A DNA stretch of 64,000 nucleotides. Origin: Streptomyces spinoverrucosus (GTDB taxonomy: Bacteria; Actinomycetota; Actinomycetes; Streptomycetales; Streptomycetaceae). Shown piece after piece: positions 35,372 through 58,318 of the stretch. The notes under the pieces were generated by a model. The model made no database searches and was not told where the DNA came from. It saw only the letters and a program-made list of their open reading frames with translations. The position numbers and the translations under genes are program-made. The DNA lies in the NCBI RefSeq assembly GCF_015712165.1, contig NZ_JADPZX010000001.1, forward strand, positions 3,799,001 through 3,863,000, read 5' to 3'. How positions within the stretch are numbered: position 1 is the first letter of the stretch; every line of letters starts with the position of its first letter.

Positions 35372-35373
35372 GA

Positions 35374-35724: not shown

Positions 35725-35735
35725 AGCGGATCACT

Positions 35736-35815: not shown

Positions 35816-35863
35816 CCGCCGCGACAGAGAACTCGCGACGGGCTATGAGGAGTTGAGCGGTCG

Positions 35864-36643: not shown

Positions 36644-36664
36644 AGTCCTTCTCTGCCTCCTATG

Positions 36665-36683
36665 CTCCTGTACATGAGTCAAC
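36665..36683. promoter_or_regulatory. Operator overlapping the Nudix start
   Basis: CTCCTGTACATGAGTCAAC differs by one base from the site at 35797-35815. It covers the ATG of the Nudix gene and lies in the GntR promoter region, so one protein could control both divergent genes. Confidence 0.6.
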
Positions 36684-37126
36684 CACAGGAAGCCACGTCG
36701 CCGCCGCTGCACTCCGTATCCGTTGCTGGAGTGGTGGTGCGCGAAGACGGGCGTCTCCTGGCGATCCGCCGAGCCGACAACGGCACCTGGGAGCTCCCCG
36801 GCGGTGTACTCGAACTGGACGAGACCCCGGAGGCCGGCGTAGCCCGCGAAGTCTGGGAAGAGACAGGCATCCGCGTCGAGGTCGACGAGCTCACCGGCGT
36901 CTACAAGAACACCACCCGAGGCATCGTGGCCCTGGTCTTCCGGTGCAAGCCGTCCGGCGGGGTCGAGCGCACGTCCAGCGAGTCGACGGCTGTCTCGTGG
37001 CTCACGCCCGACGAGGTCAGCCAGCGCATGGCCGAGGTCTACGCGATCAGGCTCTTGGACGCCCTAGACGGTGCTGGTCCCCATGTGCGAAGCCACGACG
37101 GCAAGCACCTCATCCCAGTGGGATAA
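36674..37126 (+). CDS. Nudix hydrolase, Pif-like
   Basis: A 150-residue Nudix protein. The box reads GGVLELDETPEAGVAREVWEETGI with the REVWEE metal site. In pSAM2 the Nudix gene pif gives immunity against redundant transfer between carriers; the position beside korSA supports the same role here. No Shine-Dalgarno sequence precedes the ATG at 36674 or the one at 36662, so the mRNA may be leaderless. Divergent from the GntR gene. Confidence 0.8.
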   Translation: MSQPQEATSPPLHSVSVAGVVVREDGRLLAIRRADNGTWELPGGVLELDETPEAGVAREVWEETGIRVEVDELTGVYKNTTRGIVALVFRCKPSGGVERTSSESTAVSWLTPDEVSQRMAEVYAIRLLDALDGAGPHVRSHDGKHLIPVG

Positions 37127-37518
37127 GACTTTCCCTACTTCATCAAGGCCCGCGCACGGCGCGGGAGCGCGCCGCCTGTACGGCGGGGCCGCCGCCCTGT
37201 CTTCGCCAGCGGCGGCCCCGCCCGGCGGCGCGCTGGCGGCAGCGGGCATGAAGGGGGAGACACCCTCTGTGGCTGGGGCGGTCGGCTCCACGGCTTTAGG
37301 CAGCCACTTTGGGGCGAGCCTCTAAGATCTTGGCCCCAACGTCGTGCTTTAACGGGCAGGTCCACAGACTGCCCGACTCGCCATCAGCTTACGGGGCCAA
37401 GATCACTCGCCCCAAAGCAGCTCCAGCCCAAAGCCGCTCCGCCGACCTCATAGCAAAAATGCCTGCCGCCAATTACTACATCTGAGATGCTTACTCGCCA
37501 GAAGCTAGGAGGCAGTCC
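37127..37518. other. Gene-free region with two large palindromes
   Basis: Between the Nudix and cargo genes. First, 14-bp perfect arms GGCGGGGCCGCCGC (37182-37195) and 37209-37222, extended by outer 10-bp arms at 37167-37176 and 37224-37233. Second, CTTTGGGGCGAG (37307-37318) and GATCTTGGCCCC (37326-37337) are mirrored at 37393-37404 and 37406-37417, with an inner CGGGCAG/CTGCCCG hairpin at 37353-37375. The first is a terminator candidate; the second could be a transfer or single-strand origin. The last 70 bp are AT-rich and likely the cargo promoter. Confidence 0.6.
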
Positions 37519-39012
37519 ATGTCTGAAGCACCGCACGCCTCAGCGAGGCTCTGGAAGTCCATGGATCACTTCCAGCCCGAAGTTTATGTGAAACACGTCG
37601 ACTTCAAAGAGGGGTCACCTTACGAAGGACAGAGTGTAACCCTTGCCCCTATCACGCTGGTGGCCGGGGCTCACGGCTCAGGAAAGACCACCTTCCTATC
37701 GCTGATTGCGGAATGCTTGCGAGCTGGGGCCCGATATTACGAAGTACCGCCGATTATCCGACCCCAAGGACACGGGGAGCCATTCCTGGGAGGCCAATGC
37801 CTCCTTAAGGTGCAGCGCAGTAGCGGCGAAGTTGAAATTCACGCAGACTTGGATGTTGGTAGACGAACCTCGCAGGAAAGCGATTCCACAGAGGTAGAGT
37901 TCCTCCCGATCCTCCAAGGCTCCTATGACGTCTCATCTGATATTCAGATATTCTTTCAAGACGTTCGCCTGAAATTCCTTGAGAAAGACCTGGCCGGAGA
38001 GCCGTGGGAGCAAAAGAAGAAGGATTTGGATGCCCTTCGCGCCATCCTGGGTTTTTCGTACGATGAGGCAACCTATTACCCGCTTGACGTAGACAACTCG
38101 GGGGTCGTATTCCCGTACGTCAGAGGGAGGCGAGGGGAGGAGTGGATCGACTCGTTCCAGATGAGCTACGGGGAGCTGACTGTACATAAACTCCGATGGG
38201 AAGTTGCCAACGCCCCTGCGAATTCTGTGCTGCTCCTGGACGAGCCCGAAGCCAACATTGCCCCACGAGGACGAGGAGCACTCGTCGACGAGATTGCTCG
38301 GCTAGCTCGCGGATCAAACCGTCAAGTTATCATCGCCACACACTCAGCCGAATTCCTTGGGCGCGTTCCACTATCAGCAATTCGCATGTGTGTTCGAGTT
38401 GGTAGCTCTAGGGCGATCCTCACTCCCTCGCGGCCCGCAGATCTCCGTGATTCCATCGGAGTAGATCACCCGCTTCGTTTTTTCTTGGTGGTCGAGGATG
38501 AGACGGCTGAAGCAGCCTTGTCGCTGCTTCTCACAGCACGCCAATTCCCACTCCTCAGTGAAACTGAAATAATCAAGGCGGGCTCGTGGACGGATGTAAT
38601 CGTTACACATGTCTCCATTTCGTCATCGAGTCGCGTGCGATCAGTCGCTGTAATCGATGGCGATCAAAGAACCAGGGTGCCGACCTCCAAGCGGTCCAGT
38701 AGGATACTTTTCCTGCCCGGTATCGAGCCACCCGAAAAGGTATTCATTCAGCATGCAGCGCGCCATCCAGAACAGCTGGCACGTCGGCTCAATTGCTCAA
38801 TTCAATCCATCAGCGTGTACATCGCCGAAATGCTAGGAACTGATCACCATAGGTGGCTGACACTTCTAGCTAAGCGCACCGGGCACGATTGGCGTCATTG
38901 CTTGAGAGCAGCTTTTGAGATCTGGTACTCGAATCCTGAGAATGAGTCAGAGGCCAGTGCACTCGTCGAACAGATCGTAGAAGCACTACAGCAAGGGCCC
39001 AGAGAAGTGTGA
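37519..39012 (+). CDS. OLD-like AAA ATPase with Toprim domain
   Basis: A 497-residue protein with an ABC/SMC-type ATPase followed by a Toprim-like nuclease domain. Walker A GAHGSGKT ends at K56 and T57; the signature-like MSYGE is at 215-219, Walker B LLLDEPE at 238-244, and the H-loop H275. Toprim residues are E326 in VVEDETAE and D380/D382 in VIDGDQR. This order matches OLD-family anti-phage nucleases, but no UvrD-like GajB or reverse transcriptase partner is present. The GC content and codon use are clearly lower than in neighbours, a sign of transfer. AGGAGG precedes the ATG. It sits as cargo next to attR; anti-phage defence is inferred. Confidence 0.8.
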   Translation: MSEAPHASARLWKSMDHFQPEVYVKHVDFKEGSPYEGQSVTLAPITLVAGAHGSGKTTFLSLIAECLRAGARYYEVPPIIRPQGHGEPFLGGQCLLKVQRSSGEVEIHADLDVGRRTSQESDSTEVEFLPILQGSYDVSSDIQIFFQDVRLKFLEKDLAGEPWEQKKKDLDALRAILGFSYDEATYYPLDVDNSGVVFPYVRGRRGEEWIDSFQMSYGELTVHKLRWEVANAPANSVLLLDEPEANIAPRGRGALVDEIARLARGSNRQVIIATHSAEFLGRVPLSAIRMCVRVGSSRAILTPSRPADLRDSIGVDHPLRFFLVVEDETAEAALSLLLTARQFPLLSETEIIKAGSWTDVIVTHVSISSSSRVRSVAVIDGDQRTRVPTSKRSSRILFLPGIEPPEKVFIQHAARHPEQLARRLNCSIQSISVYIAEMLGTDHHRWLTLLAKRTGHDWRHCLRAAFEIWYSNPENESEASALVEQIVEALQQGPREV

Positions 39013-39050
39013 GGCACCTCTACCCACGAGGCCGGGCAGAGCAAGGAGCC

Positions 39051-39070
39051 TGCGTGTCTAACTGCGTGAC
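39051..39070 (+). other. Right candidate integrase arm site
   Basis: TGCGTGTCTAACTGCGTGAC, 19 of 20 bases identical to 28693-28712 and in the same orientation, 98 bp inside the attR core. The remaining sequence between the cargo stop and attR holds no gene. Confidence 0.5.
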
Positions 39071-39168
39071 AACGAAGGCATACAGCAGCGGACAACTGCA
39101 CACACTTGCGGACCATCCCAGCAGGTAGGAGGCGCAACAGCCGCAGGTCGGCAGTTCGCCCAAGTTGC

Positions 39169-39213
39169 TTCGGGACGAAGAGGTCGTGGGTTCAAATCCC
39201 GCCACCCCGACAG
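39169..39213 (+). repeat. attR core of the integrative element
   Basis: Exact 45-bp copy of the tRNA-Pro 3' part, from the anticodon loop to just past the acceptor stem. It lacks the 5' half and so is not a tRNA gene. Confidence 0.93.
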
Positions 39214-39534: not shown

Positions 39535-39867
39535 TCAGCTCTCCGGATGATGAACCGCGAACACCGAGTACGCGTGGGCGTCCGGCTTGGCCAGTTCGGC
39601 GGCCTTGTCTCGGTAGATCTGGCAGTCGGGGTCCGCCATGGTCGCCTTGATGTCGGCCTTGCTGCGCCACTGGGCGAAGTAGATGAGCCGCTTGCCGTCA
39701 TTGCTGGTGAGGATGTTCACCGAGAGGCATCCCGGGCGGTGGCGGATGTGTTTCTCGGCGCCCTCGCTGAGCAGTTCGGCAAGCTCCTGTTGGCGCTCGG
39801 GCTCGACCTCGAAGACGTTGATCATCGAGACACTGCCGTCGTCGGCACGGATGACTGTTTCGCTCAT
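39535..39867 (-). CDS. ABM-family antibiotic biosynthesis monooxygenase
   Basis: A 110-residue ferredoxin-like alpha+beta barrel protein: INVFEVEPERQQELAELL, RPGCLSVNILTSNDGKRLIYFAQWRSKADI. The family includes cofactor-free quinone-forming monooxygenases (ActVA-Orf6, TcmH) and heme-degrading enzymes. In this cluster it could oxidise a hydroquinone or phenol to a quinone. GAGGAGCC precedes the ATG at 39867. It follows the antiporter gene, 50 bp away, on the same strand. Confidence 0.8.
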   Translation of the reverse strand: MSETVIRADDGSVSMINVFEVEPERQQELAELLSEGAEKHIRHRPGCLSVNILTSNDGKRLIYFAQWRSKADIKATMADPDCQIYRDKAAELAKPDAHAYSVFAVHHPES

Positions 39868-39917
39868 GGTGGTGGCTCCTCAAGAGGGGGAGGGGAAGGG
39901 AAGGGAGGAGGGCTCGG

Positions 39918-41249
39918 TCAGGTGATTCGGGCCAGTTCGGGGAGCTGGGTTTCCGTATGGTCCGCCGTCCTCAACTGCTTCTCCATGGACTCGGGCAGCG
40001 CCAGCTTGTACAGCGGCAGCGCGCCGGCGGTGGTGACCACCGCCACCAGCACCAGGAGGGAGAAGACGTCCTGCGTGATCATCCCCTGCGCCAGGCCGAT
40101 GTTGATGAAGATGAGGATCATCAGGCCACGGGCGTTCATCAGCCCGCCCACGGCGTAGGACTCACGCCAGGAGAATCCCGAAGCCTTCATCCCCAGGGCG
40201 CAGCCGAAGTACTTTCCGGCGAAACCGGCTGCCAGGATCAGCAGGAAGGGAAGCACCATGCCCCATCCCGCGAGTCCGTTCAACTGGGTGTTCAGGCCGG
40301 AGAAGGCGAAGAAGACGGGCAGGAGCAGCACGCACACGAAATCCATCATGCGGCTGTGCAGCGCCTCGCGGAAAGCGGCGTTTCGCGGCATGGCGAGGCC
40401 GGCGATGAATCCGCCGAACACCGAGTAGATGCCGATGTAGTCGGTGAAGTAACCGCATAGCACGACGATACCGACCACCAGGTACATCTGGTCGAAACCG
40501 AGGCTCCCGGAGCGTTCCACCAAAGCACCCAGCGGGCGCAGCAACTTGGCCACGACCAGCAACATGACAAGAGCGAATATGACCGCGAGCCCGATGGTGC
40601 GGACCGCGTGCAGTGGGCCTTGGTCGGCGTGCATCGCGGACAGTGCGGCGAGGAAGCACCACGCCGCCGCATCGTCGACCGAGGCACCGAGCAGCGTCAT
40701 GCGCCCCAGCGTCGTATTCTGCAGCCCGCGCTCGTAGAGAATTCGGGCCAGCATGGGGAACGCGGTAATCGACAGGGCACCGCCGAGAAAGCAGGCGAAT
40801 TCGACCGGGCCCACGTCGTCGCGGGACAGGCGGCCGTGGAGGACGTATCCCACCCCGGCCCCGAGCAGCAATGACGGCACCACACCCGAAATCGCCAGGA
40901 CCGCCGCCTGTCTGCCCTGCTTCGCCCCGTCGGCCGACGTGTGGTCCAGTCCCGCCCCGACGAGGAACATGAAGAAGGTGAGCCCGATGGTGCTCAGCAC
41001 ATACAGAATCGGCTTGGTTTCCACCGGGAAAACGGATTTCTGCGCAGCGGGAAACAGTGCGCCGAAGAATGTCGGCCCGAGCAGTACACCCGCGATCATC
41101 TCTCCCAGCACGCGAGGCTGTTTCGCGAGGACCGCGAGCCGGCCGCAGATGGCTGACGCGGCGATGATGACGACGACGGCGGGCAGGACTTTCAATACCA
41201 GTTCGAGATTTTTATCGGCGGCCGCCGCCGCGTGGATGGCATGCTGCAC
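39918..41249 (-). CDS. CPA2-type cation/proton antiporter
   Basis: A 443-residue membrane protein with about 12 transmembrane segments and the Na_H_exchanger pattern: QPRVLGEMIAGVLLGPT and LLGASVDDAAAWC with the paired Asp. No TrkA-N regulatory tail is present. Such antiporters occur in some polyketide clusters, where they may provide pH homeostasis or self-protection against an ionophoric product. The GTG at 41249 follows GAGGGGGA. Confidence 0.85.
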   Translation of the reverse strand: MQHAIHAAAAADKNLELVLKVLPAVVVIIAASAICGRLAVLAKQPRVLGEMIAGVLLGPTFFGALFPAAQKSVFPVETKPILYVLSTIGLTFFMFLVGAGLDHTSADGAKQGRQAAVLAISGVVPSLLLGAGVGYVLHGRLSRDDVGPVEFACFLGGALSITAFPMLARILYERGLQNTTLGRMTLLGASVDDAAAWCFLAALSAMHADQGPLHAVRTIGLAVIFALVMLLVVAKLLRPLGALVERSGSLGFDQMYLVVGIVVLCGYFTDYIGIYSVFGGFIAGLAMPRNAAFREALHSRMMDFVCVLLLPVFFAFSGLNTQLNGLAGWGMVLPFLLILAAGFAGKYFGCALGMKASGFSWRESYAVGGLMNARGLMILIFINIGLAQGMITQDVFSLLVLVAVVTTAGALPLYKLALPESMEKQLRTADHTETQLPELARIT

Positions 41250-41783
41250 GAATCCCCCTCACCTCGACAGATGCAGATGCGATAGCAGGTGCGACACCCG
41301 AGGATGGCCGGTCGTCACTGCGGATCGCATGGAAGTCGCTTGCGCCGTCGGATCATCCTCCTCTGGCACGTTCGGGGTGTGCGTTGCAAGTAGAAATCAA
41401 GCCATCGAGCAAGGCGACAGAGGGCTGACTGCGCCACCACCGCTCACTGCCTTTTCTTTGCTTTCGGATTACCTGCTTCGCACATGCGGCTGATAATCTC
41501 GCAATAGTCGGGAGAGGTTGACTCCCGAAAGGCTTGACCGTGCGAATCGGGGGGATTATGCAGGCCGGCAAGTTGGTCATGTGAGTCCGAGCGTTCGGAC
41601 GAGTCACCGTGCGCCCGACGTCTCCACGCGCTGAGGCAGCGTCCACACCCATGCCATGACTCCCGCAGCGGGACGAACAGTGCTGTTGTCCGCTGCGCAC
41701 GTCGATGGCCGTATCCGGCCCCAACTCAAGGCTGGGCCATACAGGCCCGCCTCTTGGTTCTGCCTGGAGAATCCGAGGAGAGT
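41250..41783. promoter_or_regulatory. 534-bp divergent regulatory region
   Basis: Between the antiporter and the LuxR-type gene. It is AT-richer than its surroundings near 41450-41500. One clear dyad, TCGGGAG at 41508-41514 and CTCCCGA at 41522-41528, could be an operator. No credible gene was found. Confidence 0.4.
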
Positions 41784-42509
41784 ATGGACAACGTTCACGT
41801 AGGCCAGAGTCGAACGAGCGTGGAGCCTGCTTCAGTCGTGGCGTCACCGGTCTTGGGGTCGCAGGTCGCCCAAGTTCTCCTGATCGACGAGGAAGCCCTG
41901 TTCCGTGAGGGACTGTGCAGTCTCCTGGCCGATGCCGAGGAGATCACGGTCGTCGGCGACACCGAGGACGTGAGCGAGGCGATCGCCCTGGCCGCCGAAC
42001 GCGGCCCCCATGTCATCCTCCTCGGCATCCGTGACGCCGACGGTGCGACAACAGCGGTGCGGCGCCTGCGGCAGGCTGCCCCCCAGGCAGCCGTCGTGAT
42101 CCTGGGTGCCCATGCCAGCTTCGGTCTCATGCAGGAACTCCTCAGTGCGGGAGTGCGTGGGTTCCTCTCGCGCACCGCCTCCGGTCAGGAGCTGATCGCC
42201 ACCGTGCGCGCCTGCCACGAGAGCAACCGGCGAGTGTTCCTCGCCGTACCCCCCGAGGCGCTACTGCTGTCCGGGATGCAAAGCCACGGTGTCCGGCTCA
42301 CCGAGCGGGAGCGGGAGGTGCTCGACCTGACGGCCTGCGCTATGAGCAACGCACAGATCGCCGCTTCGCTCGGCCTGTCGGAACCGACCGTGAAGCGGCA
42401 TCTGCGCAACATCTTCAGCAAGCTCGGTGCCGTCTCGCGGATCGACGCGGTCAACAAGGCACGGGCAGCGTCACTGATCTCGGGGCGGCGGCCGGCCGAC
42501 TTCTTCTAG
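41784..42509 (+). CDS. LuxR-family response-regulator-like protein, atypical
   Basis: A 241-residue NarL-type protein. The receiver domain spans about residues 30-145 and the LuxR HTH about 175-235 (LTEREREVLDLTACAMSNAQIAASLGLSEPTVKRHL region). The acidic pair is present (LIDEEALF), but the phosphorylation position reads VILLGIRD, with G81 where Asp is expected. It is therefore probably phosphorylation-independent, controlled by ligand or abundance. No partner kinase is nearby. GAGGAGAG precedes the ATG at 41784. Its TAG stop overlaps the convergent MFS stop within CTAG. Confidence 0.85.
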   Translation: MDNVHVGQSRTSVEPASVVASPVLGSQVAQVLLIDEEALFREGLCSLLADAEEITVVGDTEDVSEAIALAAERGPHVILLGIRDADGATTAVRRLRQAAPQAAVVILGAHASFGLMQELLSAGVRGFLSRTASGQELIATVRACHESNRRVFLAVPPEALLLSGMQSHGVRLTEREREVLDLTACAMSNAQIAASLGLSEPTVKRHLRNIFSKLGAVSRIDAVNKARAASLISGRRPADFF

Positions 42510-43948
42510 GCGGCCTTCGCAGGGCGGCCGATGTACGCGGCCACCACACCGGCCCCGGCGAGCAGGACGAGACCGGCCACCGCCAGCGCGACCCGGGTGC
42601 CATCGGTGACCGACGACGCACCGCCGATCACCGCGCCCAGGACGGCCACGCCCAGGACGGCGCCGGTCTGGCGGGCGGAGTTCAGCGCACCCGAGGCGAT
42701 ACCTGCCTGCTCCTTGGCCACCGACCCCACGATCGCGGTCATCAGCGGCGGAATGGAGAAGGAGACACCGAAGCCCAGGACCAGCAGGCCGATGCACATC
42801 GCGACGAGCGAGACGGTGGAGTCCGCTGTGGAGGCGGACTGGATCAGGACCCCGACGCCCATCATCAGGAACCCGGCGATGGCGGGCTTGCGGGCGCCGA
42901 TCCTGGCTACGAGTCGGCCGGTGAAGATCGGGTTGAAGGCCGTCGGCAGGGTGAGCGGCAGGAAGGCCAGGCCCGCGGTGAAGGCCGAGTAGTGGTGCGC
43001 CTCCTGGAAGAAGAGCGACAGGACGAACAGGACCCCCGAGAGCCCGAAGTTGACCAGGAGTCCGGCGAACAGACCTGCGGACAGCGTCCGGTTGCGGAAC
43101 ATCTCCAGTGGCAGCATCGGGGCGTGCGTCGCGCTCCCCCTGCGGCGCTCGGCGCATACGAACGCCACCCCAGCCACCGCGAACACCGCGAATCCGCCGA
43201 GCACTTCGGTCGACCCCCAACCCTTGGGCTGGCTCTCGATGAGCGCGTACGTCAGGCCGGCGAGGGCGAGGACCGCGCTGATCTGCCCCGGCAGGTCGAC
43301 TCCCTTGGCAGGTTTGGGGGCGCTGACCGGCGCGTACTTCATCGTCAGGGCGATGCTGACGAGCCCGACCGGGATGTTGAGCAGGAAGATGGACTGCCAC
43401 CCGAGCGTGTCGGTGAGGACACCGCCGACCAGGGGGCCCGCGGCCAGCGCGGTGCCGCTGATCGCGGCCCAGCCGCCCATGGCCCGCGCACGGGCCGGCG
43501 GGTCGGTGTAGGCGTGCGCGATGATCGCCAGTGACGTGGGCAGAAGCAGGGCGCCCGCGACACCGAGCAGGGCTCGCAGGGCGATCAGCGCACCCATGGA
43601 CGTGGCCACCGCAGAGAGGCCGGAGAAGACGGCGAACAGCCACAGGCCGGTCAGGAAGACCTTCCGGCCGCCGTAGCGGTCGGAAAGCGCGCCGGCGGTG
43701 AGCAGCAGGGCGGCGAAGGTGAGCGTGTACCCGTTGGATACCCACTGCAGTCCGCTGAGCGAGCCGGACAGGTCCGCACCAATGGCGGGCAGCGCCACCG
43801 TGACGACCGTGGTGTCCAGCATCACCATGAAGTAACCGAGCGACAGCCCCAGAAGGAGGAGCCCCTTCGATGCGGTGGCAGATGTGCCCGGTGGGGCCCC
43901 GGGAGACGATTGGGAGACGTTCATCGGGCTGGCTGACTGGCTGGACAT
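42506..43948 (-). CDS. DHA2-family MFS exporter
   Basis: A 480-residue drug:proton antiporter with 14 predicted transmembrane segments. Motif C-like GTALAAGPLVGGVL near residue 160 and the N-terminal LDTTVVTVALPAIG are typical of EmrB/QacA antibiotic exporters. It is the likely exporter and self-resistance gene of the cluster. The ATG at 43948 follows GGGAGGACAG. It is divergent from the LysR gene. Confidence 0.9.
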   Translation of the reverse strand: MSSQSASPMNVSQSSPGAPPGTSATASKGLLLLGLSLGYFMVMLDTTVVTVALPAIGADLSGSLSGLQWVSNGYTLTFAALLLTAGALSDRYGGRKVFLTGLWLFAVFSGLSAVATSMGALIALRALLGVAGALLLPTSLAIIAHAYTDPPARARAMGGWAAISGTALAAGPLVGGVLTDTLGWQSIFLLNIPVGLVSIALTMKYAPVSAPKPAKGVDLPGQISAVLALAGLTYALIESQPKGWGSTEVLGGFAVFAVAGVAFVCAERRRGSATHAPMLPLEMFRNRTLSAGLFAGLLVNFGLSGVLFVLSLFFQEAHHYSAFTAGLAFLPLTLPTAFNPIFTGRLVARIGARKPAIAGFLMMGVGVLIQSASTADSTVSLVAMCIGLLVLGFGVSFSIPPLMTAIVGSVAKEQAGIASGALNSARQTGAVLGVAVLGAVIGGASSVTDGTRVALAVAGLVLLAGAGVVAAYIGRPAKAA

Positions 43949-44133
43949 GACTGTCCTCCCAAGGAGGTACGGGGGTGTTTCTGAGCAAAAGCCGCAGAGC
44001 GGCGGCATGGGACATCGCCGGGACCAGTTGTGGGCAGGGGCGACAGCTGAAATCCTTGCAGCGCGAACCCGGTTGCAGAAGCGGGCACTTCCGATGACGA
44101 CCATCGGCAGGGCCGATCAGAAGGGCGGGAGCT

Positions 44134-45042
44134 GTGGAACTGCGTCACCTGCGGACGTTCCGGACCGTGGCGCGCACACTCAACTTCACCCGGGCCGCCG
44201 CGGAGCTCAACTACGCCCAGTCCAGCGTCACCGAACAGATCCAGGCCCTGGAGACCGAGCTCGCCGCCAAGCTCTTCGACCGCAGCCATCGCAAGCTGTC
44301 GCTGACCCCCGCCGGTGAGCGCCTGGTCGAGTACGCCGACCAGATGCTCCTGCTCGCCCAAGAGGCGCGCACTGCCGTCGAGGACGAAGGCCAGGAACCC
44401 GGCGGCCAGTTGACCGTCGGCGGGCTGGAAACCCTGTGCGCGCACCGGCTGCCGCCCATCCTCGCCCGCTACCGCCGGCTCTACCCGCGCGTCCAGGTGA
44501 CGCTGCGCGAGGGCGGCCGCGGCCAGCTCTACGAGTGGGTCCGGCGAGGCGAGATCGACGTCGCGCTCACCTTCGGCCAGGCCCCCCAGGACAAGCTCCT
44601 CGCGAGCGAGTCACTCGCCACTGACCGACTCATGGTGGTCACGCCCACGGGGCACCGACTCGCGTCGTACGCCCAGGTCGGCGGCCCGGACCTGCGCGGC
44701 GAGTCGTTCCTGGCCACCCCGCAGGGCTGCGGCTTCCGGGAGATGCTCGACACGCTGATCCACACGCTGGGACCGGACGCACCCGTCATCGACACCCAGG
44801 TCGCAAGCATGGCCGCGCTGTGCCAGTGCGCGTCCGCGGGCATGGGCTGCGCGCTGCTGCCCGAGATCGCGGTGGTTGGAGCCGCCGCCCGCGGCGAAGT
44901 GGCCGCGGTACCTCTGAAGGGCAGCGCCTCGCACACCCAGGTCACGATGACCTGGCTGCGCCGGGCGGAGCTGCGGGCCAGCGTCCCGGCGTTCCTGGGC
45001 ACGGCCCGCGAGGCCTTCCAGGAGCTCGAACGAGCCGCCTGA
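44134..45042 (+). CDS. LysR-family transcriptional regulator
   Basis: A 302-residue regulator with the N-terminal winged HTH (residues 1-60: LRTFRTVARTLNFTRAAAEL, SSVTEQIQALE) and a periplasmic-binding-protein-like effector domain from about 90. Its divergent position to the MFS gene suggests it controls that exporter, perhaps in response to a pathway aromatic. The GTG at 44134 follows GGGCGGGAG. Confidence 0.9.
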   Translation: MELRHLRTFRTVARTLNFTRAAAELNYAQSSVTEQIQALETELAAKLFDRSHRKLSLTPAGERLVEYADQMLLLAQEARTAVEDEGQEPGGQLTVGGLETLCAHRLPPILARYRRLYPRVQVTLREGGRGQLYEWVRRGEIDVALTFGQAPQDKLLASESLATDRLMVVTPTGHRLASYAQVGGPDLRGESFLATPQGCGFREMLDTLIHTLGPDAPVIDTQVASMAALCQCASAGMGCALLPEIAVVGAAARGEVAAVPLKGSASHTQVTMTWLRRAELRASVPAFLGTAREAFQELERAA

Positions 45043-45247
45043 CGCCGCGACGGGCCTGAACGACACCGGCCTTCGCACCGGACAGTGACGGTCAGGGCAT
45101 CCTCCAGGATCACTCGACGTACGCCCTCCGATACCGTGGGCTCATACCTTGGTCCCGCACACCTTGTGTACGGCTCAAATAGCTGCCTAAGTTCCAGACC
45201 TGAAGTCACGCAATGCCAAGCGGCGCATAACTGTGTGCGGAGGGCAG

Positions 45248-46069
45248 ATGGAAATAGGCACCCTTGGTCCGTTCAGATTTCAGATCAACGGAAACGAAGC
45301 GGGCCCCAGAGCACCCAAGATCCGGCAGATGCTCGCGCTGTTCTCCGTGCGCAGCAATCAGGTCGTCCTGATGCAGCACCTGGTGCAGGAACTCTGGTCC
45401 GAATACCCGCCGCGCAGTGCGAAGATAACGCTGCAGACCTATATCGTCCGGCTGCGCCAACAGCTCGCCAAAAACCTTGAGGAGAGCGGCACCGCACTCG
45501 ATCCGAAGGATCTCCTCCAGACCTTCCACGGCGGATATCAGCTCACCGTCGACCCGGCTGTCCTGGAATACCGCCGGTTCGAGGAACTCGCGGCCCGGGG
45601 GCGCCGTGAAATCGCCACGGGCGACTATGCTCGCGCCGCGCTGCTCCTGCGGTCGGCCCTGGACATGTGGCGCGGCTCCGCCCTGGTCGACATCAGCACC
45701 GGCCCACTGCTGCACGCCCATGTGACCAGGCTGAACAACGCCCGGGTGACCGCTGTCGAACAGCTCATGGAGGCCGAGCTGCGCCAGGGCCGGCATCTGG
45801 ACATCCTGGGCGATCTCACGGATCTCACTGCCGAGCACCCTTTTCACGAAAACCTGCACGCGCAATTGATGGTCGCCCTGTATCGAGCCGGCCGCCGTTC
45901 CCAGGCTCTTGAGGTGTTCGCCGGGCTCCGGAGCGCTCTTGTCACCCACCTGGGTATCGATCCGTCGTACCGGCTGAACCGTCTGCACCGGGCGATCCTC
46001 AACGGCGATCAAACCCTTGAAGACCTCCCGCAGTCTGGCGGAATCCTGCTCGACCGCTTCGCAGCCTGA
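45248..46069 (+). CDS. SARP-family pathway activator
   Basis: A 273-residue Streptomyces antibiotic regulatory protein. The N-terminal OmpR-like winged helix spans residues about 5-95 (FRFQINGNEAGPRAPKIRQML, TLQTYIVRLRQQL) and the bacterial transcriptional activation domain about 103-250. These usually switch on the adjacent biosynthetic operon by binding direct repeats. The ATG at 45248 follows GGAGGGCAG. A 15-bp repeat array starts 18 bp after its stop. Confidence 0.9.
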   Translation: MEIGTLGPFRFQINGNEAGPRAPKIRQMLALFSVRSNQVVLMQHLVQELWSEYPPRSAKITLQTYIVRLRQQLAKNLEESGTALDPKDLLQTFHGGYQLTVDPAVLEYRRFEELAARGRREIATGDYARAALLLRSALDMWRGSALVDISTGPLLHAHVTRLNNARVTAVEQLMEAELRQGRHLDILGDLTDLTAEHPFHENLHAQLMVALYRAGRRSQALEVFAGLRSALVTHLGIDPSYRLNRLHRAILNGDQTLEDLPQSGGILLDRFAA

Positions 46070-46086
46070 CGAACCGCTCGCACTTT

Positions 46087-46249
46087 CCCGGTGAACTCCT
46101 CCCGGTTCGCATCCTCCCGGTCCGTATCTTCCCGGTCCGTAACTTCCCGGTCCGTAACTTCCCGGTCCGCATCCTCCCGGTCCGTATCTTCCCGGTCAAC
46201 GCTTCCCCGGTGAACACGTCCTGTTTCACGCCTTCCCGGTTCACACCTT
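46087..46249 (+). repeat. 15-bp tandem repeat array before the halogenase gene
   Basis: CCCGGT begins units at 46087, 46101, 46116, 46131, 46146, 46161, 46176, 46191, 46206 and 46235. The central seven have an exact 15-bp period and consensus CCCGGTCCGTAACTT. The array fills the gap between the SARP gene and the halogenase gene. It may be an operator array or a minisatellite; no spacers exist, so it is not CRISPR. Confidence 0.85.
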
Positions 46250-46265
46250 TCGAAGGAGACCGTAA

Positions 46266-47615
46266 GTGAATTCTGCCCAGAACCCGCCCGAGCAGGTGGA
46301 TGCCATCGTCATCGGTGCCGGCCCGGCGGGCACCACGGCGGCGACCAAGCTCGCCCAGTCGGGGCGCTCCGTGCTCGTTCTCGAACGGCGTTCCCTCCCT
46401 CGATTCCACATCGGCGAGTCGCTGCTGCCGCCGATCACGGCCATTCTCGAAGAACTCGGCGCGTACGAGCGCGTCCTGGAGCAGGGGTACGTGCTCAAGC
46501 ACGGGGCGGAGTTCAGCGGCGGCCGCAAGGGGCGGTTCGGGCGCATCCCGTTCGCCGGGCAGGGGCCCGGCCGCCACCACGTCACGTTCCAGGTCGAGCG
46601 GGCTCACTTCGACAAGACGATGGCCGACGTGGCGCAGGACAGCGGTGCCACGGTGCTGCAGGAGGCGACGGTCCACGAACTGCTGCGGGACGGCGACCGG
46701 GTCGTGGGCGTGCGCTACGAGTACGGCGGACGCAGCCACACCGCCCACGCGCCGTACGTCATCGACGCCGGCGGCCGAGCCAGCAAGGTGGCACACACCT
46801 TCGGGCTGCGCCGCAGCCTCGACAGCCTGCGCATGGTGGCGGCGTACCAGCACTTCCAGGGCCTGGACGAGAAGTACAACCCCGGCGTCGAGGGCGACCT
46901 GCAGATCGGCGGCCACGCCGACGGCTGGGTGTGGGCGATCCCGATCTGGTCGGACACCATCAGTGTCGGCGCGGTCATGCCGCGCGACCTCCTGCACGGC
47001 GTGGCCGACCGCGAGGCCGTCTTCCGGGACCACGTGTCCCGTATCGCCCGGATCACCCAGCGCCTCACGGGCACGCGGCCCATCGGCGAGCTGAAGGTGG
47101 AGACCGACTACTGCTACTACTCCGACACGATCACCGGCGACGGGTGGTTCATGGTCGGCGACTCCGCGACCTTCTTCGACCCGATCTTCTCCGGCGGTGT
47201 CTTCCTCGCCATGTGCACCGGCCTGAAGGCCGCCGAAACGGTGGACGCCACCCTGTCCGAGCCGGAGCGCACCGACGAGCTTCAGCTCGCCTACTCCAAC
47301 TTCTACAAGACCGGCTACGACGTCTACGGACGCCTCATCCACGCCTACTACGAGGCCGGTTACAGCCTGCGCGGCTTTCTGACGGACGCGGGCTTCGAGA
47401 TCTCCGGTGACCAGCTCGGCACCAACAAGTGGGTCGCGCGGCTGGTCAGCGGTGACTTCTGGAACCCGCGCAACGTCCTGCTCCGGCACCTGCGCGCCCA
47501 GTCCAAGTGGGACACCTTCGCCCCGTTCGAGCCCCACTGGGGCTGCCCCTTCTACGAGGAGCTGAACGTGGCGGAGGACGAGGAAACCGCCAGGGAACCC
47601 GCCTCCGTGGCGTGA
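46266..47615 (+). CDS. FAD-dependent halogenase
   Basis: A 449-residue flavoenzyme. The FAD motif GAGPAG is at 18-23, the halogenase signature WVWAIP at 221-226, and the second flavin motif GDSATFFDPIFSGGV at 298-312. K78 in VLKHGAEF is at the position expected for the catalytic Lys that forms chloramine or positions HOCl. It resembles the phenol/pyrrole group that often acts on carrier-bound substrates (PltA, CndH) more than free-Trp halogenases. Substrate: probably the 6-methylsalicylate ring. The start GTG 46266 follows AAGGAGA. Confidence 0.9.
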   Translation: MNSAQNPPEQVDAIVIGAGPAGTTAATKLAQSGRSVLVLERRSLPRFHIGESLLPPITAILEELGAYERVLEQGYVLKHGAEFSGGRKGRFGRIPFAGQGPGRHHVTFQVERAHFDKTMADVAQDSGATVLQEATVHELLRDGDRVVGVRYEYGGRSHTAHAPYVIDAGGRASKVAHTFGLRRSLDSLRMVAAYQHFQGLDEKYNPGVEGDLQIGGHADGWVWAIPIWSDTISVGAVMPRDLLHGVADREAVFRDHVSRIARITQRLTGTRPIGELKVETDYCYYSDTITGDGWFMVGDSATFFDPIFSGGVFLAMCTGLKAAETVDATLSEPERTDELQLAYSNFYKTGYDVYGRLIHAYYEAGYSLRGFLTDAGFEISGDQLGTNKWVARLVSGDFWNPRNVLLRHLRAQSKWDTFAPFEPHWGCPFYEELNVAEDEETAREPASVA

Positions 47616-47633
47616 CGCCCGGCCCTCCAGGCA

Positions 47634-47675
47634 GAGCCCCGACGAGCGGAGCGGTTGCGCTGCTCGCCGGGGCTC
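47634..47675 (+). terminator. Hairpin between the halogenase and hydroxylase genes
   Basis: GAGCCCCGACGAGC and GCTCGCCGGGGCTC pair at 13 of 14 positions with a 14-nt loop. It may end halogenase transcripts or lower downstream expression. Confidence 0.6.
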
Positions 47676-47716
47676 CCCGTCGTCCGCCCTCTTCCCGCTC
47701 CCAGGAGAGCCACCCC

Positions 47717-49576
47717 ATGCGACCTCAGACCTTCGCCGTGATCGGCGGCGGACCCGCCGGTCTCTTCCTCGCCCGACTTGTCAAGATGTCTACCCCGCAG
47801 GCCTCGGTCACCGTCTACGAACGCAACGCCGCCGACGCGACCTTCGGCTTCGGAGTCGTCTTCTCCGACCGCACGATGGCCGCCTTCGAGCGAGCCGACC
47901 CGGAAACCTGCCGGCGCCTGCGCGAGGCGAGCGTGCAGTGGACCGACATGGAACTGCGACACCAGGGCCGCGCCCTGCGGTACGGCGGCTACGGGTTCAC
48001 CGCGATCTCCCGCAGGACACTCCTGCGCATCCTCCAGGAGCAGGCCGCGGAGGTCGGCGCCCGGCTGCGCTTCCACCACGAGATTCCGCTCGCGGACGCG
48101 GTCGGCGACGCGGATGTCGTAGCGGTCGCGGACGGCGCCAACTCCGCGACCAGAAAGGCGTACGCGCAGGCCTTCGGCACGACCGTCGACGCGTCGGGGC
48201 CCCAGTACATCTGGTTCGGGACCCCGGCGCGCTTCGACCGGGTGACCTTCCCCTTCGTACAGACGCGCTTCGGCCCGCTCGCCGCGCACGCCTACCCTTA
48301 CGAGCCGGGGACCAGCACCTTCATCGTCGAGACGGACACGGCCACCTGGCGGGCGGCGGGAATGGACGTTTCCACGCGGGGGGCGCAGGCCCCGGGCGTG
48401 AGCGACATCCACTCCAGGGAACTGCTCGAAGAGATCTTCAAGGAGCATCTGGACGGCCATCCCCTGCTGGTCAACAACAGCAAGTGGGCCTCGTTCCAGG
48501 TGGTGCGCAACAACAACTGGTCGCACCGGAACATGGTCCTGCTGGGGGACGCTGCCCACACCGCCCACTTCTCGGTCGGCTCGGGCACCAAGATGGCCAT
48601 GGAGGACGCGATCGCCCTCGCCGAGGCCCTGGGCTCCGAGGGCACGACGGCCGACGCGTTCCGCGCGTACGAGACCCGGCGGCGCCCGGAGGTGCGGCGC
48701 ACCCAGGACTGGGCCGCGCCCAGCATGCGGTGGTGGGGCACGTTCGCCCGGCGGCTGCACATGGAGCCGGAGCAGTTCGGCTTCCACTTCCTCACCAGGA
48801 CCGGAGCCATCTCGTACGCGGGTCTGAAGCGTCGTCACGCGTCGCGTATCGACGAGGTCGAGTCCTGGTTCGCACGCCGGTCGTCTCCCGACGCCCCACG
48901 GGAGTCCGGAGCTGCTCGCTCGGCCGTCTCCCTGCCGCTCACCGTGGACGGCACCGTGCTGGCGAACCGCATCGCCACCGTGACGCCACCGGACGCCGTC
49001 GAGTCGAGCGCCCGGGCCGGCGGCGGACTCGTCATCGTGGACTGGTCCGCGGACGGCCCCGACGGCGGCAAGGACGCCTGGCTGGCGACGATCGAGCGGG
49101 TCCGGGGGCAGGGTGCGCAGCCCATGGCCCTGGTGCGGGCGCAGGACGCGGTCGGCGAGGAGTTCGCGCGAGCGGTGGGGATACGGCTGATCGAGCGGGT
49201 GCTGCCCACAACCGCGGCGCTGCGGGACGGTGCGTCGGTGATGGTCGGCGTGGACTGTCCGCCCGTACCCGCGTGGAGCGCCGAGGGCGAGGACTTCGTC
49301 CAGTGGTGCGCGGAGCAGACGCGGGCCGGTGCCATCGGCGTACATCTCCGGCTGCGGGAGGACGAGTTGACCGTGGCGGGGTGGATGCGGGCCCTCGGCT
49401 ACGCGGACCTGGTGCGCGAGCGTTCCCGCAAGGTGGTCCTCCTGGACGCGCCCGACGGTTGGGCGCTCGGCGCTCCCGACTCGCATCGCGGTGAGGGCTG
49501 GGGGACGCGGATCCACACGGCCCTGCTGTCCGGCCGACTCGACGCCGTCGTGGCACACCCGCTGGGCCGGACCTGA
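47717..49576 (+). CDS. Salicylyl-CoA 5-hydroxylase-like flavoprotein
   Basis: A 619-residue enzyme. Residues 1-390 form a class A flavin monooxygenase (GGGPAG at 9-14, GDAAHTAHFSVGSGTK near 277), closest in pattern to salicylyl-CoA 5-hydroxylase SdgC. Residues about 410-619 resemble the old-yellow-enzyme domain fused in that family (LPLTVDGTVLANRIATVTPP start), but the barrel is shortened and degenerate. Predicted to hydroxylate an o-hydroxybenzoyl-CoA or carrier thioester at C5 to a gentisyl type hydroquinone. The ATG at 47717 follows CAGGAGAG. Confidence 0.8.
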   Translation: MRPQTFAVIGGGPAGLFLARLVKMSTPQASVTVYERNAADATFGFGVVFSDRTMAAFERADPETCRRLREASVQWTDMELRHQGRALRYGGYGFTAISRRTLLRILQEQAAEVGARLRFHHEIPLADAVGDADVVAVADGANSATRKAYAQAFGTTVDASGPQYIWFGTPARFDRVTFPFVQTRFGPLAAHAYPYEPGTSTFIVETDTATWRAAGMDVSTRGAQAPGVSDIHSRELLEEIFKEHLDGHPLLVNNSKWASFQVVRNNNWSHRNMVLLGDAAHTAHFSVGSGTKMAMEDAIALAEALGSEGTTADAFRAYETRRRPEVRRTQDWAAPSMRWWGTFARRLHMEPEQFGFHFLTRTGAISYAGLKRRHASRIDEVESWFARRSSPDAPRESGAARSAVSLPLTVDGTVLANRIATVTPPDAVESSARAGGGLVIVDWSADGPDGGKDAWLATIERVRGQGAQPMALVRAQDAVGEEFARAVGIRLIERVLPTTAALRDGASVMVGVDCPPVPAWSAEGEDFVQWCAEQTRAGAIGVHLRLREDELTVAGWMRALGYADLVRERSRKVVLLDAPDGWALGAPDSHRGEGWGTRIHTALLSGRLDAVVAHPLGRT

Positions 49577-49590
49577 TGCCGGCCCCGGCT

Positions 49591-50067
49591 CTACTCCGCC
49601 TCGGGCGGGGAGGGCCGGGGCCCGCGGGACGCCTGGGCCTCGGAGAGGCCGGCCTCCAGGCGGCGCAGCACCTCAAGGGTCCGGCCGAGCTCGGCGGAGC
49701 TCATCCCGCCAACCGCAGCCTGCTCCAACTCCCGCCAGAGCTCCTCCACTTCGTGTCGTAGCGCGCGGCCCTTGTCGCTGAGGGAGACCATCACGATCCG
49801 CTGGTTGTCGGGCGGGCGGTGCCGTGTGACGAAGCCCTGGGCCTCCAGGCGCTGGAGCATCTTCGTCACCGTCGACGCCTCCAGCCGGAGCGCCGTCACC
49901 AGGTCCCCCTGCGGCTGGTGGTCGCGGTTCCACAAGCGCATCAGCAGCAGCTCCTGCCCGGGGAAGAGGCCCACCCGGCGCAGCAGGGCGCCCGCGAGGT
50001 TGCGGTGGGTGCGCGCGATGCTCGCCAGCAGCTGGTTCACCGATCCGTCGTCAAATGCGGAATTCAC
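49591..50067 (-). CDS. MarR-family regulator
   Basis: A 158-residue MarR winged-helix protein (QPQGDLVTALRLEASTVTKML; RHRPPDNQRIVMVSLSDKG wing). Such regulators usually sense aromatic acids, fitting a salicylate-type product. The GTG at 50067 follows GGAGGACGCG. It is divergent from the PKS gene and converges on the hydroxylase gene, 14 bp apart. Confidence 0.88.
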   Translation of the reverse strand: MNSAFDDGSVNQLLASIARTHRNLAGALLRRVGLFPGQELLLMRLWNRDHQPQGDLVTALRLEASTVTKMLQRLEAQGFVTRHRPPDNQRIVMVSLSDKGRALRHEVEELWRELEQAAVGGMSSAELGRTLEVLRRLEAGLSEAQASRGPRPSPPEAE

Positions 50068-50176
50068 CTGGCGCGTCCTCCTGCGGTGGACCTCGGCCTA
50101 CTTCTGCGCAGAGGCTACAAGTACCCTGCCCGGCAACCTGCTTGGACGTGGCGATCCCTTGCCGCCCAACGATTGG

Positions 50177-50195
50177 TCGGCTAACGTTTAGCCGA
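50177..50195. promoter_or_regulatory. Candidate MarR operator
   Basis: TCGGCTAA and TTAGCCGA form perfect 8-bp arms around CGT, with flanking TTGG and CCAA extending the symmetry imperfectly. It lies 110 bp before marR and 115 bp before the PKS gene. Confidence 0.6.
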
Positions 50196-50310
50196 GCCAA
50201 GTTTCTGCTGCCGGACGCGCCCACCCCCATGTGCGCCGCAAGCGGGCGGCATGTCGCGTTGCCCAGGATCTTCTCGTACGCCCGACGCAGGCAGTGACGA
50301 GGGGGCTCCA

Positions 50311-55662
<5,352 letters not shown>

Positions 55663-55739
55663 TCAGGCGACCGGCCGGCGCCACCACCGGCGCCGGCCCC
55701 CGATCCGTGCGTACAGGACCGCAGAAACAGGAGAAACCC

Positions 55740-57443
55740 ATGACACGAGCGGGTGTCGTCCCCTGGCCTGAGGAGTTCGTCCGGCAGTACGTCGCGAAGG
55801 GCTACTGGCGGCAGCGACCGCTGGGTGCGCTGATGTGGGAGTGGGCGGACGCGTACGGGCCGCGCGTGGCCCTGGTCGACGGCGACCGGCGCGTCACCTA
55901 CCGGGAACTGGCCGAGACCGCCGACAACCTGGCGGAGGGCATGGCCGGCACCGGCCTGAAGCGCGGCGACAACATCCTCGTCCAGCTTCCCAACTGCTGG
56001 GAGTTCATCGCCCTCGTCCTCGCCTGCGCCCGGCTGGGTGTGGCGCCGGTTCTCGCCCTGCCCCCGCACCGCGAGCACGAGCTGACGTACATGGCCGAAC
56101 TCGCCGAGGTCTCGGCCGTGGTGGCGCCCGGCAGCTGGCGCGGCTTCGACCACCAGTCGCTCGCCGAACACGTCGCACGGACACGCGGCCACGGATGCCG
56201 GGTCCTGATCGTCGGGGACACCGTGCGTCCCGGCAACGTCGACCTGCGGGCGCTGATGACCGCCGCCACCGGTGACCCCGCCGCCCGGCGGCACAGGTTG
56301 GACACCTTGGCCCCCGACGCGAGCGAGGTGCTGCTGTTCTTGCTGTCGGGCGGAACCACGGGCCTGCCGAAGATCATCGCCAGGACGCACAACGACTACG
56401 AGTACAACGCCCGCCGCAGCGGCGAGGTCTGCGGCTACGGCCGGGACACGGTCTATCTCGCCGTCCTGCCCGTCGCGCACAACTTCGCCCTGGCCAGCCC
56501 CGGCGTGCTCGCGGCGCTGATGAGCGGCGGCCGGGCCGTACTGATGCCGTCGCCGAACCCCGAGGCCGCCTTCGCCGCCGTGGAAAGGGAACGGGCGACA
56601 GTCACCTCGCTCGTCCCCGCCGTGGCCCGACGGTGGCTGGAGGCCGCGGCGAAGGACCACCACGACCTGTCCAGCCTGAGGGTGGTCCAGGTCGGTGGGT
56701 CCGTGCTGTCCTCCGCCGAGGCGCAGAGCCTCCTGGGCGGTCTCGGCGGGCGGCTCCAGCAGGTCTTCGGGATGGCCGAGGGTCTTCTCAACTACACGCG
56801 GCTCGACGACCCCGACCACCTGGTCCTCACCACCCAGGGGCGGCCCATCTGCCCCGACGACGAGATCCTCCTCGTCGACGAGGACGACGTGCCCGTACCC
56901 CCGGGGCGGCCGGGCCGCCTCCTGACCCGCGGCCCCTACACGCCCAGGGGCTACTTCGCCGCGCCCGAGCACAACGCGCGTGCCTTCACCGCGGACGGCT
57001 GGTACCGAACGGGCGACGTCGTGCACCGGGACGCGGCAGGCAATGTCACCGTGGAAGGCCGCACGAAGGACCTGATCAACCGCGGCGGCGAAAAGATCTC
57101 CGCCGACGAGGTCGAGGATCTGGTGCGCAGCCTGCCTCAGGTCGCGGACGTCGCCGTGGTGCCCGCACCGCACCGGGAGCTGGGCGAGTCGGTGTGCGCC
57201 TGTGTCGTCCTCAAGGGCGGGCAGACCCTCGACCTCGCGGACATCCAGCGCCTGTTCCACGAGCGCGGTGTGGCCGCCTTCAAGACCCCGGAACTGCTCA
57301 TGTTCCTCCCCGCGCTGCCCCAGACGCCGGTCGGAAAGATCGACAAGAAAGCCCTGCGGAAGCTGGCCGAACCAGCCGTCCCCACCCGGCCGACACCCGG
57401 CCGGGCCCGGCCCGCGCGGGTGACCGCGCTCCCGCGCCCGTAA
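55740..57443 (+). CDS. Aryl-AMP ligase, DhbE/EntE/salicylate type
   Basis: A 567-residue adenylating enzyme. The core motif LSGGTTGLPKI is near residue 202. LPVAHNFALASPG near residue 242 matches the pocket of 2-hydroxybenzoate-activating ligases, where the Asn contacts the 2-OH. The C-terminal GKIDKKAL has the catalytic Lys. It has an extended Pro/Arg tail. Predicted substrate: 6-methylsalicylate or a derivative, loaded to CoA or a carrier. No separate carrier or CoA transferase gene is visible. The ATG at 55740 follows AGGAGA. Confidence 0.9.
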   Translation: MTRAGVVPWPEEFVRQYVAKGYWRQRPLGALMWEWADAYGPRVALVDGDRRVTYRELAETADNLAEGMAGTGLKRGDNILVQLPNCWEFIALVLACARLGVAPVLALPPHREHELTYMAELAEVSAVVAPGSWRGFDHQSLAEHVARTRGHGCRVLIVGDTVRPGNVDLRALMTAATGDPAARRHRLDTLAPDASEVLLFLLSGGTTGLPKIIARTHNDYEYNARRSGEVCGYGRDTVYLAVLPVAHNFALASPGVLAALMSGGRAVLMPSPNPEAAFAAVERERATVTSLVPAVARRWLEAAAKDHHDLSSLRVVQVGGSVLSSAEAQSLLGGLGGRLQQVFGMAEGLLNYTRLDDPDHLVLTTQGRPICPDDEILLVDEDDVPVPPGRPGRLLTRGPYTPRGYFAAPEHNARAFTADGWYRTGDVVHRDAAGNVTVEGRTKDLINRGGEKISADEVEDLVRSLPQVADVAVVPAPHRELGESVCACVVLKGGQTLDLADIQRLFHERGVAAFKTPELLMFLPALPQTPVGKIDKKALRKLAEPAVPTRPTPGRARPARVTALPRP

Positions 57444-57479
57444 CGGCAGCCCACCCGTACGCCAGGAAAGGAAACGAGG

Positions 57480-58076
57480 ATGGAATCCACCGGCAGCCCC
57501 ACTCCGCACGACCGGCTCACGCTCCGGGGAGTCGACCACCTGGCCCACGTCACCTGGGACCCCGAGGCCACCGTGAGCTTCTACCGCGACGCTCTCGGCC
57601 TGCCGCTCGTCCACGCCGTCACGGGAACCGGCTGGCTGTCGGAGAACTTCCCGGACTTCGTCCACTTCTTCTTCGCCCTCGGCAACGGCAACCACCTGGC
57701 CTTCTTCTACTACTTCGACCTCCCCCAGGACCAGGCCCCCGACGACCTCATGCACGTGTCACGGCACATCGCCCTGCACGTCGACACCGAGGAAGAGCTC
57801 CTTGCCTGGCGCGGCAGGCTCAAGGCCGCCGGAATCCGGGTCACGCCACCGCTGGCCCACGAGATGATCGAATCCATCTACTTCGACGACCCGAACGGCA
57901 TCCAGCTCGAAATCACCCGTCCGCTGCGGGAGTTCGGGGGCATCGACGCGCGCGACGCCGAGCTGACCGTGGCCGCGCTGACCGACGTGGTCCGCAAAGG
58001 CGATCCGTCGCTCAAGGCCACCTGGCAGCGCAAGGCCGAACTGATCGCCGCACGACACGAGAGGGACACCAACTGA
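57480..58076 (+). CDS. VOC-family protein
   Basis: A 198-residue vicinal-oxygen-chelate fold protein, with paired modules in its first 140 residues. Candidate metal ligands are H19 or H22 (GVDHLAH), H98 (HIALHV) and E143 (QLEITRP). It may be a ring-processing dioxygenase, isomerase or binding protein for the aromatic product. The C-terminal 50 residues are a helical extension. The stop overlaps the next start (TGATG). Confidence 0.75.
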   Translation: MESTGSPTPHDRLTLRGVDHLAHVTWDPEATVSFYRDALGLPLVHAVTGTGWLSENFPDFVHFFFALGNGNHLAFFYYFDLPQDQAPDDLMHVSRHIALHVDTEEELLAWRGRLKAAGIRVTPPLAHEMIESIYFDDPNGIQLEITRPLREFGGIDARDAELTVAALTDVVRKGDPSLKATWQRKAELIAARHERDTN

Positions 58077-58318
58077 TGGCCACCCTGTACATCCTCGACG
58101 TCCCCGAATTCCGGGCCCTGTTGGACGCGGTCACCAGCGATACCGCAACGACCGAGACCGTCGGCGACTACGTGTGCGTCACCACCGCCGAGGGACCGCT
58201 CGTTCTGGAGCGCGAGCGGATCGGCGCCCGTGACGCCGTCTGGTTCTCCGCGCTGACCGGCGGATACAGCGGAACCATGGCCAGGTTCGACAAGTCCGTG
58301 CTCCGGCTGGAAGATTGA
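58076..58318 (+). CDS. Small protein coupled to the VOC gene, unknown
   Basis: An 80-residue protein starting MATLYILDVPEFRALL and ending FDKSVLRLED. It has alternating strands and helices, no cysteine motif and no membrane segment. Overlap with the VOC gene suggests equal expression and perhaps a complex. No family recognised. It is the last gene of the cluster; the next 180 bp hold no gene. Confidence 0.7.
   Translation: MATLYILDVPEFRALLDAVTSDTATTETVGDYVCVTTAEGPLVLERERIGARDAVWFSALTGGYSGTMARFDKSVLRLED

Follow-up and report, generated by a model that had tools for sequence, protein, structure and literature searches.

We analysed a window of 64,000 nucleotides from Streptomyces spinoverrucosus (contig NZ_JADPZX010000001.1), in which a discrete cluster of 13 genes occupies positions 39535–58318. 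Its core combines a polyketide synthase (PKS) of the 6-methylsalicylic acid (6-MSA) synthase type with an AMP ligase, a flavin-dependent halogenase, a salicylyl-CoA-5-hydroxylase-like monooxygenase and a metalloprotein of the vicinal oxygen chelate (VOC) family, the last followed by a small partner gene. We predict from these genes, with a probability of about one half, that the cluster makes a ring-opened and perhaps recyclised chlorinated compound from 6-MSA that is activated, para-hydroxylated, chlorinated and cleaved, and this ranks first among the explanations considered.

The PKS (50251–55662, forward strand; 1803 residues) is an iterative type I enzyme with ketosynthase (KS), acyltransferase (AT), dehydratase (DH), ketoreductase (KR) and acyl carrier protein (ACP) domains on a single protein. 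The motifs are intact throughout: DTACSSS, EAHGTGT and IGHLEAG in the KS, GHSVGE and VAFHS in the malonyl-type AT, HPVQGVEIIP in the DH, GGLGALG together with the Ser/Tyr motif in the KR, and LGLDSV in the ACP. An initial annotation of this DNA had described an MSAS-type PKS with an intact KR and a malonyl-type AT; that description holds, and nothing in the motifs points to an inactive enzyme. The KS-AT-DH-KR-ACP order is the one described for 6-MSA synthases, and a single reduction sets orsellinate apart from 6-MSA (PMC2636887, in excerpt). Indirect support for a 6-MSA-type assignment comes from another genome of the family (G100), where a PKS 57% identical over 1779 residues has a KASIII-like gene as its neighbour. 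Among solved structures the product of that gene is closest to ChlB3 (582 bits, full-length), the protein that introduces 6-MSA to an ACP (PMC9573744, in excerpt). Among the window proteins scanned with Pfam, a set outside which some small open reading frames (ORFs) fall, neither a KASIII-type acyltransferase nor a further PKS or a nonribosomal peptide synthetase (NRPS) was found, as the initial annotation had remarked of scaffold and acyltransferase genes, and only one of the genome's ketosynthase matches falls in the window. A PKS about 50% identical to that of the cluster is found on the Pseudonocardia plasmid pLS1-1 (L131), from an ant-associated host, among genes for a cupin protein, an adenylate-forming enzyme, an acyl-CoA reductase and a P450.

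The ligase (55707–57443, forward strand) has a salicylate-AMP ligase as its best solved relative (PDB ID: 5wm2; E 2e-160), which we take to be CahJ, and scores 584.5 bits against TIGR02275, the model for (2,3-dihydroxybenzoyl)adenylate synthase, below the cut-off of 723.55 bits. For the FAD monooxygenase (47717–49576, forward strand; 47507 is the start in the ORF list), residues 77–494 fit the hydroxylase half of the bifunctional model NF006101 (E 1.8e-126); the score of 423.2 bits does not reach the cut-off of 1078, only positions 4–418 of the 768 in the profile being covered. Both proteins are of the types that had been annotated, a 2-hydroxybenzoate-type AMP ligase and an SdgC-like C5 hydroxylase. 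In the 80 loci retrieved with the hydroxylase as query, such a ligase and hydroxylase often occur as a pair. One weak profile match (probability 33.6%) hinted at a decayed Old Yellow Enzyme (OYE) domain towards the C-terminus of the hydroxylase, which we do not claim.

The VOC metalloprotein (57480–58076, forward strand), present as annotated, is a probable ring-cleaving dioxygenase. Its only solved relatives by sequence are a homogentisate 1,2-dioxygenase (PDB ID: 9u42), the best match with about 28% identity, and two MhqO-type proteins. Residues H20, H62, H96, H127 and E144 are shared with 9u42 and do not vary among all 26 relatives compared, and nine of the ten positions inspected in the alignment of these 26 proteins, the metal residues included, are identical in all of them. 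Foldseek also places 9u42 first (E 7.6e-11), with the next match at 7.8e-7. The start of the partner gene (58076–58318, forward strand; 80 residues) overlaps the VOC stop (TGATG from 58074), and its product belongs to no Pfam or NCBIfam family. This gene had been overlooked in the initial annotation, whose end coordinate, 58318, is the end of this very gene. We know of no small partner of the VOC-type homogentisate 1,2-dioxygenase 9U42.

The same pair of genes travels in operons that look like degradation pathways. VOC matches occur in 75 plasmid records, of which 15 were listed and 11 fetched (H21, H24, H28 and H29 were left out). A homologue of the 80-residue partner lies behind the VOC gene in all 11, and the two are fused into one protein in the Variovorax locus (L136). 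An AMP ligase accompanies them in 10 of the 11 loci and a hydroxylase-like monooxygenase in eight. Nine have an isomerase-type gene, which the records call maleate cis-trans isomerase or Asp/Glu racemase and whose product stays under the cut-offs of the family models that it matches. Nine loci also have a specific alpha/beta hydrolase, while L130 carries a different one, and a cupin gentisate dioxygenase occurs in a single locus, L135, the source of the one query used. The simplest route for these operons would be activation, para-hydroxylation, ring cleavage by the VOC protein and its partner, hydrolysis and maleate isomerisation. The hydrolase has no match in the S. spinoverrucosus genome at E 1e-5, whereas it was found in three of the 12 genomes searched (G308, G286 and G100), which served as positive controls. 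A maleate-isomerase-type gene is likewise lacking in the window, and the genome holds only matches of 29–30% identity, at 5.47 Mb. In G100 (contig C1, about 986600–1001400; L116 and L117) the 6-MSA-type PKS and the ChlB3-like acyltransferase directly adjoin a complete degradation-type operon of this kind, with hydrolase and isomerase.

We surveyed 394 genomes of the Streptomycetaceae for close VOC relatives (E up to 1e-40) and found them in 11. Four have such a PKS nearby: the S. spinoverrucosus genome itself (G000), G194, S. violascens (G202) and G100. Two (G308 and G286) have degradation-type operons, and the remaining five (G084, G057, G171, G304 and G140) share a PKS-free cluster, which we call group B. 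At the class level, close relatives (E up to 1e-60) occur in two of 394 genomes, G000 and G561, the latter again with a group B cluster. All five group B clusters of the family contain an AMP ligase, an MFS protein, another FAD monooxygenase, a gene that we read as methyltransferase-like and a protein of 265–340 residues, one member of which was scanned and matched no Pfam family; a LysR gene is present in four and an ABM gene in three. With G561, the group B loci (L104–L113, L124–L125) span two genera of the Streptomycetaceae and Frankia.

In a tree of the 26 VOC sequences, the six from PKS clusters and the six from group B form one supported set (98/97). The reading of the VOC protein as a ring-cleaving enzyme has several weak points. 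The tree carries a long-branch warning, and the G100 protein, though beside a PKS, groups with the catabolic VOC proteins. Despite its first rank in Foldseek, 9u42 superposes poorly on the VOC protein (TM 0.34), and it is not among the 50 VIA-align matches listed. Two of the plasmid loci, L134 and L135, are exceptional in context, L134 having the VOC and partner genes only.

The halogenase (46266–47615, forward strand; 449 residues; PF04820), likewise present as annotated, contains GAGPAG, LKHGA, WVWAIP and FFDPIFSGG. We take GxGxxG, WxWxIP, FxxPxxSxG and the lysine motif to be the signatures of FADH2-dependent halogenases of the CmlS/ChlB4/PltA class. The protein has these motifs when aligned with CmlS and PDB entry 8zop, and matches ChlB4 (PDB ID: 7fco) with E 8.9e-39. 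We looked for relatives in nine genomes at E 1e-30. One is 90% identical (G194), TRM70350 (G748) has a fragment of 138 residues, the remainder of which is nowhere in the assembly, and G084 has a 33% match elsewhere in the genome; none was found in S. violascens, WM6378 (G749), NBC_00154 (G750), G100 or G561. The cluster stretch of S. violascens stops at a contig end just behind the SARP gene, the halogenase search having covered the whole genome. Since S. violascens, WM6378 and NBC_00154 each keep the PKS, ligase, hydroxylase, VOC and partner genes together with no relative of the halogenase found, chlorination looks optional in this type of cluster. On three other actinobacterial contigs (153183, 433090 and 31331 bases) relatives of the hydroxylase, VOC protein and halogenase seem to co-occur, as judged by contigs of equal size across three protein searches.

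What we propose builds on gene content, motifs, homology, synteny and the absence of a hydrolase match in the genome. The cluster would form a pathway complete in itself, with a 6-MSA synthase at its start and, after it, a module resembling salicylate-type catabolism. In this pathway the PKS would make 6-MSA, which the ligase would activate and the SdgC-like enzyme hydroxylate at C5, para to the phenol, to give 6-methylgentisate or its thioester. Chlorination of the ring by the halogenase would most likely fall on C3, with C5 already occupied, the position being a guess. Opening of the ring after 5-hydroxylation is predicted because the VOC protein matches a homogentisate 1,2-dioxygenase and travels with its partner in degradation-type operons; the two would cleave in the homogentisate or gentisate fashion. 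As for gentisate, the bond broken would probably be the one that joins the carbons carrying the carboxyl and the hydroxyl group. The cleavage product would be a chlorinated acid like a methyl-maleylpyruvate, which could close to a hydroxybutenolide or similar ring. Because the hydrolase that would continue the catabolic route was not found, the product or its precursor may be this chlorinated ring-opened keto acid itself, or its lactone or furanone, exported by the MFS protein under the control of the SARP, LysR, LuxR and MarR regulators. We infer each of these reactions, and with them their order, the carrier (CoA, ACP or the free acid), the position of the chlorine and the final structure.

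The initial annotation had favoured chlorinated 6-methylgentisate or a quinone. Its polyketide, activation, 5-hydroxylation and halogenation parts are supported; an intact aryl acid or quinone as the end product is not supported, given the VOC match to homogentisate dioxygenase and the occurrence of the partner in degradation-type operons. That such a product is nonetheless the end of the pathway, the VOC protein serving for resistance or sequestration or as an isomerase and the ABM protein forming the quinone, seems unlikely to us. All the enzymes for it (PKS, ligase, hydroxylase, halogenase and ABM) are present, and the fold matches of the VOC protein include the antibiotic-binding VOC-fold proteins TnmS3 and Mrd, the latter for mitomycin resistance, but the protein retains every metal-site residue of a dioxygenase and has a partner known from degradation-type operons. 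The ABM-domain protein (39535–39867, reverse strand; 110 residues; PF03992; predicted model with pLDDT 77) had been termed quinone-forming, a designation that is not secure. The solved structure closest to it is that of FasU (PDB ID: 9lsd), titled a polyketide cyclase, followed by, among others, ActVA-Orf6, and the protein may act as a cyclase or an oxygenase. The gene is retained in G194 and TRM70350.

We consider it rather improbable that the VOC protein and its partner act on the hydroxylated thioester in some other way, for example by isomerisation, epimerisation or rearrangement, leading to neither a plain aryl acid nor a gentisate-type ring-opened acid; the three solved sequence relatives, a homogentisate dioxygenase and two MhqO-type proteins, include no epimerase. 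A role in supplying 6-MSA, or a modified form of it, as the starter for an NRPS encoded elsewhere appears very improbable, despite the precedent of the unlinked 6-MSA synthase for cahuitamycin C (PMC4757757, in excerpt). An NRPS near 1.20–1.21 Mb of the genome adjoins a second ligase, 53% identical to that of the cluster, yet this locus (contig C1, about 1198700–1212300; L146) encodes a salicylate synthase of its own (TIGR03494 above cut-off) beside that salicylate-type AMP ligase, and the 39535–58318 cluster is itself equipped with a ligase, hydroxylase, VOC pair, exporter and regulators. Should ring opening be correct, the product to expect is a ring-opened compound and no longer a simple chlorinated benzoic acid, and metabolomics would otherwise seek the wrong masses. 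The VOC protein and its partner would then be a ring-cleaving dioxygenase module for para-hydroxylated aryl acids, common to degradation-type operons of Proteobacteria and Actinobacteria and to two kinds of biosynthetic-looking clusters, and catabolic enzymes would have been recruited into natural-product assembly.

Several known systems share parts of this arrangement. The 6-MSA branch of chlorothricin biosynthesis, whose genes we take in part to be named ChlB1–ChlB4, has in common with the cluster a bacterial 6-MSA-type PKS and a flavin halogenase (ChlB4), but in the window neither a ChlB3-like acyltransferase nor a free ACP or a scaffold PKS is to be seen, and a ligase, a 5-hydroxylase and the VOC pair are found instead. 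In the sdg pathway salicylate is degraded via salicylyl-CoA 5-hydroxylase; the pairing of AMP ligase and SdgC-like hydroxylase is the same, whereas the cluster is fed by a PKS, is proposed to use the VOC pair for ring cleavage and has a hydroxylase that matches half of a bifunctional model. The VOC operons of Tsukamurella, Rhodococcus, Variovorax and others share the AMP ligase, monooxygenase, VOC and small partner genes, add hydrolase and isomerase-type genes, and lack a PKS or halogenase in their annotated stretches. With 9U42 the VOC protein has the fold class and the five His/Glu residues in common, at about 28% identity and with a different substrate. Fungal patulin-type pathways are thought to open the ring of 6-MSA, and we know of no halogenase in them. 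The likeness lies in the 6-MSA start and the proposed ring opening, the enzymes of the fungi being others. That 6-MSA is the precursor there is stated in PMC2636887 (in excerpt). For cahuitamycin, 6-MSA synthase and activation of the salicylate-AMP-ligase type are shared, but the synthase is unlinked and feeds an NRPS (PMC4757757, in excerpt), whereas the cluster PKS adjoins ligase and tailoring genes.

In the open-access literature we found no bacterial 6-MSA cluster with a halogenase, hydroxylase and VOC module, and no characterised cluster that matches. The only match for 6-MSA with a halogenase concerned a fungus, and the papers that mention gentisyl-CoA included none with methylgentisate or methylgentisic acid. 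There were no papers for PDB entries 8ZOP, 9U42 and 9LSD, and none on a VOC-type homogentisate dioxygenase was recognisable among the matches listed. It is possible, and we suggest it tentatively, that the cluster is the bacterial equivalent of the fungal opening of the 6-MSA ring, reached with a different set of enzymes. A polyketide aryl acid, chlorinated in some strains, would be cleaved by a VOC dioxygenase of two genes, the catalytic VOC protein and its 80-residue partner, to a ring-opened or recyclised acid; in our searches no product of this class was linked to a bacterial 6-MSA synthase.

The other genes comprise the four regulators and two transporters that had been annotated. A CPA2-type cation:proton antiporter (39918–41249, reverse strand; PF00999, TIGR00932 below cut-off) follows the ABM gene, and then come a LuxR-type response regulator (41754–42509, forward; PF00072 and PF00196), a DHA2-family MFS exporter (42506–44104, reverse, with a probable start at about 43948; TIGR00711 above cut-off), a LysR-type regulator (44134–45042, forward; PF00126 and PF03466) and a SARP-type activator (45233–46069, forward; PF03704 and PF00486). 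A MarR-type regulator (49591–50067, reverse; PF01047) separates the hydroxylase from the PKS. With the exception of MarR, the 13 genes are found again in G194 in the same order at 75–90% identity, so the cluster is more than a chance assembly. The MarR gene is absent between the corresponding genes of G194 and present in TRM70350, where it is found with the ABM, hydroxylase, PKS, ligase, VOC and partner genes at 86–95% identity. The borders are fixed by the recurrence of the gene order in these two genomes; to the right lie GtrA-, GT2- and YfhO-like genes, and to the left an integrated element. In TRM70350 (L009, 9690) the antiporter and halogenase are fragments only, cut and joined at one point, and the stretch is about 7 kb shorter than in the window; this is either a deletion or an assembly fault.

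The integrated element is of the pSAM2 type and lies at a tRNA-Pro gene (28561–28635), spanning 28593–39213. Between its 45-bp repeats (28593–28637 and 39169–39213) are genes for an integrase, RepSA, an FtsK-like protein, a GntR/UTRA regulator and a DUF2637 protein, and a GGDEF-domain gene (31703–32254). Its right end is about 320 bp left of the ABM gene, and a search with 14-base words showed no third copy of the repeat in the window; we therefore reject the idea that the element carries the cluster. Within the cluster, the gap between the SARP and halogenase genes holds a 15-bp tandem repeat of 6.5 copies (46100–46197). In G194 the corresponding gap measures only some 40 bp and does not contain the repeat. 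In another Streptomyces genome (G060, contig C1, about 3343500–3346200; L126) an antiporter 71% identical and a halogenase 53% identical to those of the cluster adjoin a SARP gene.

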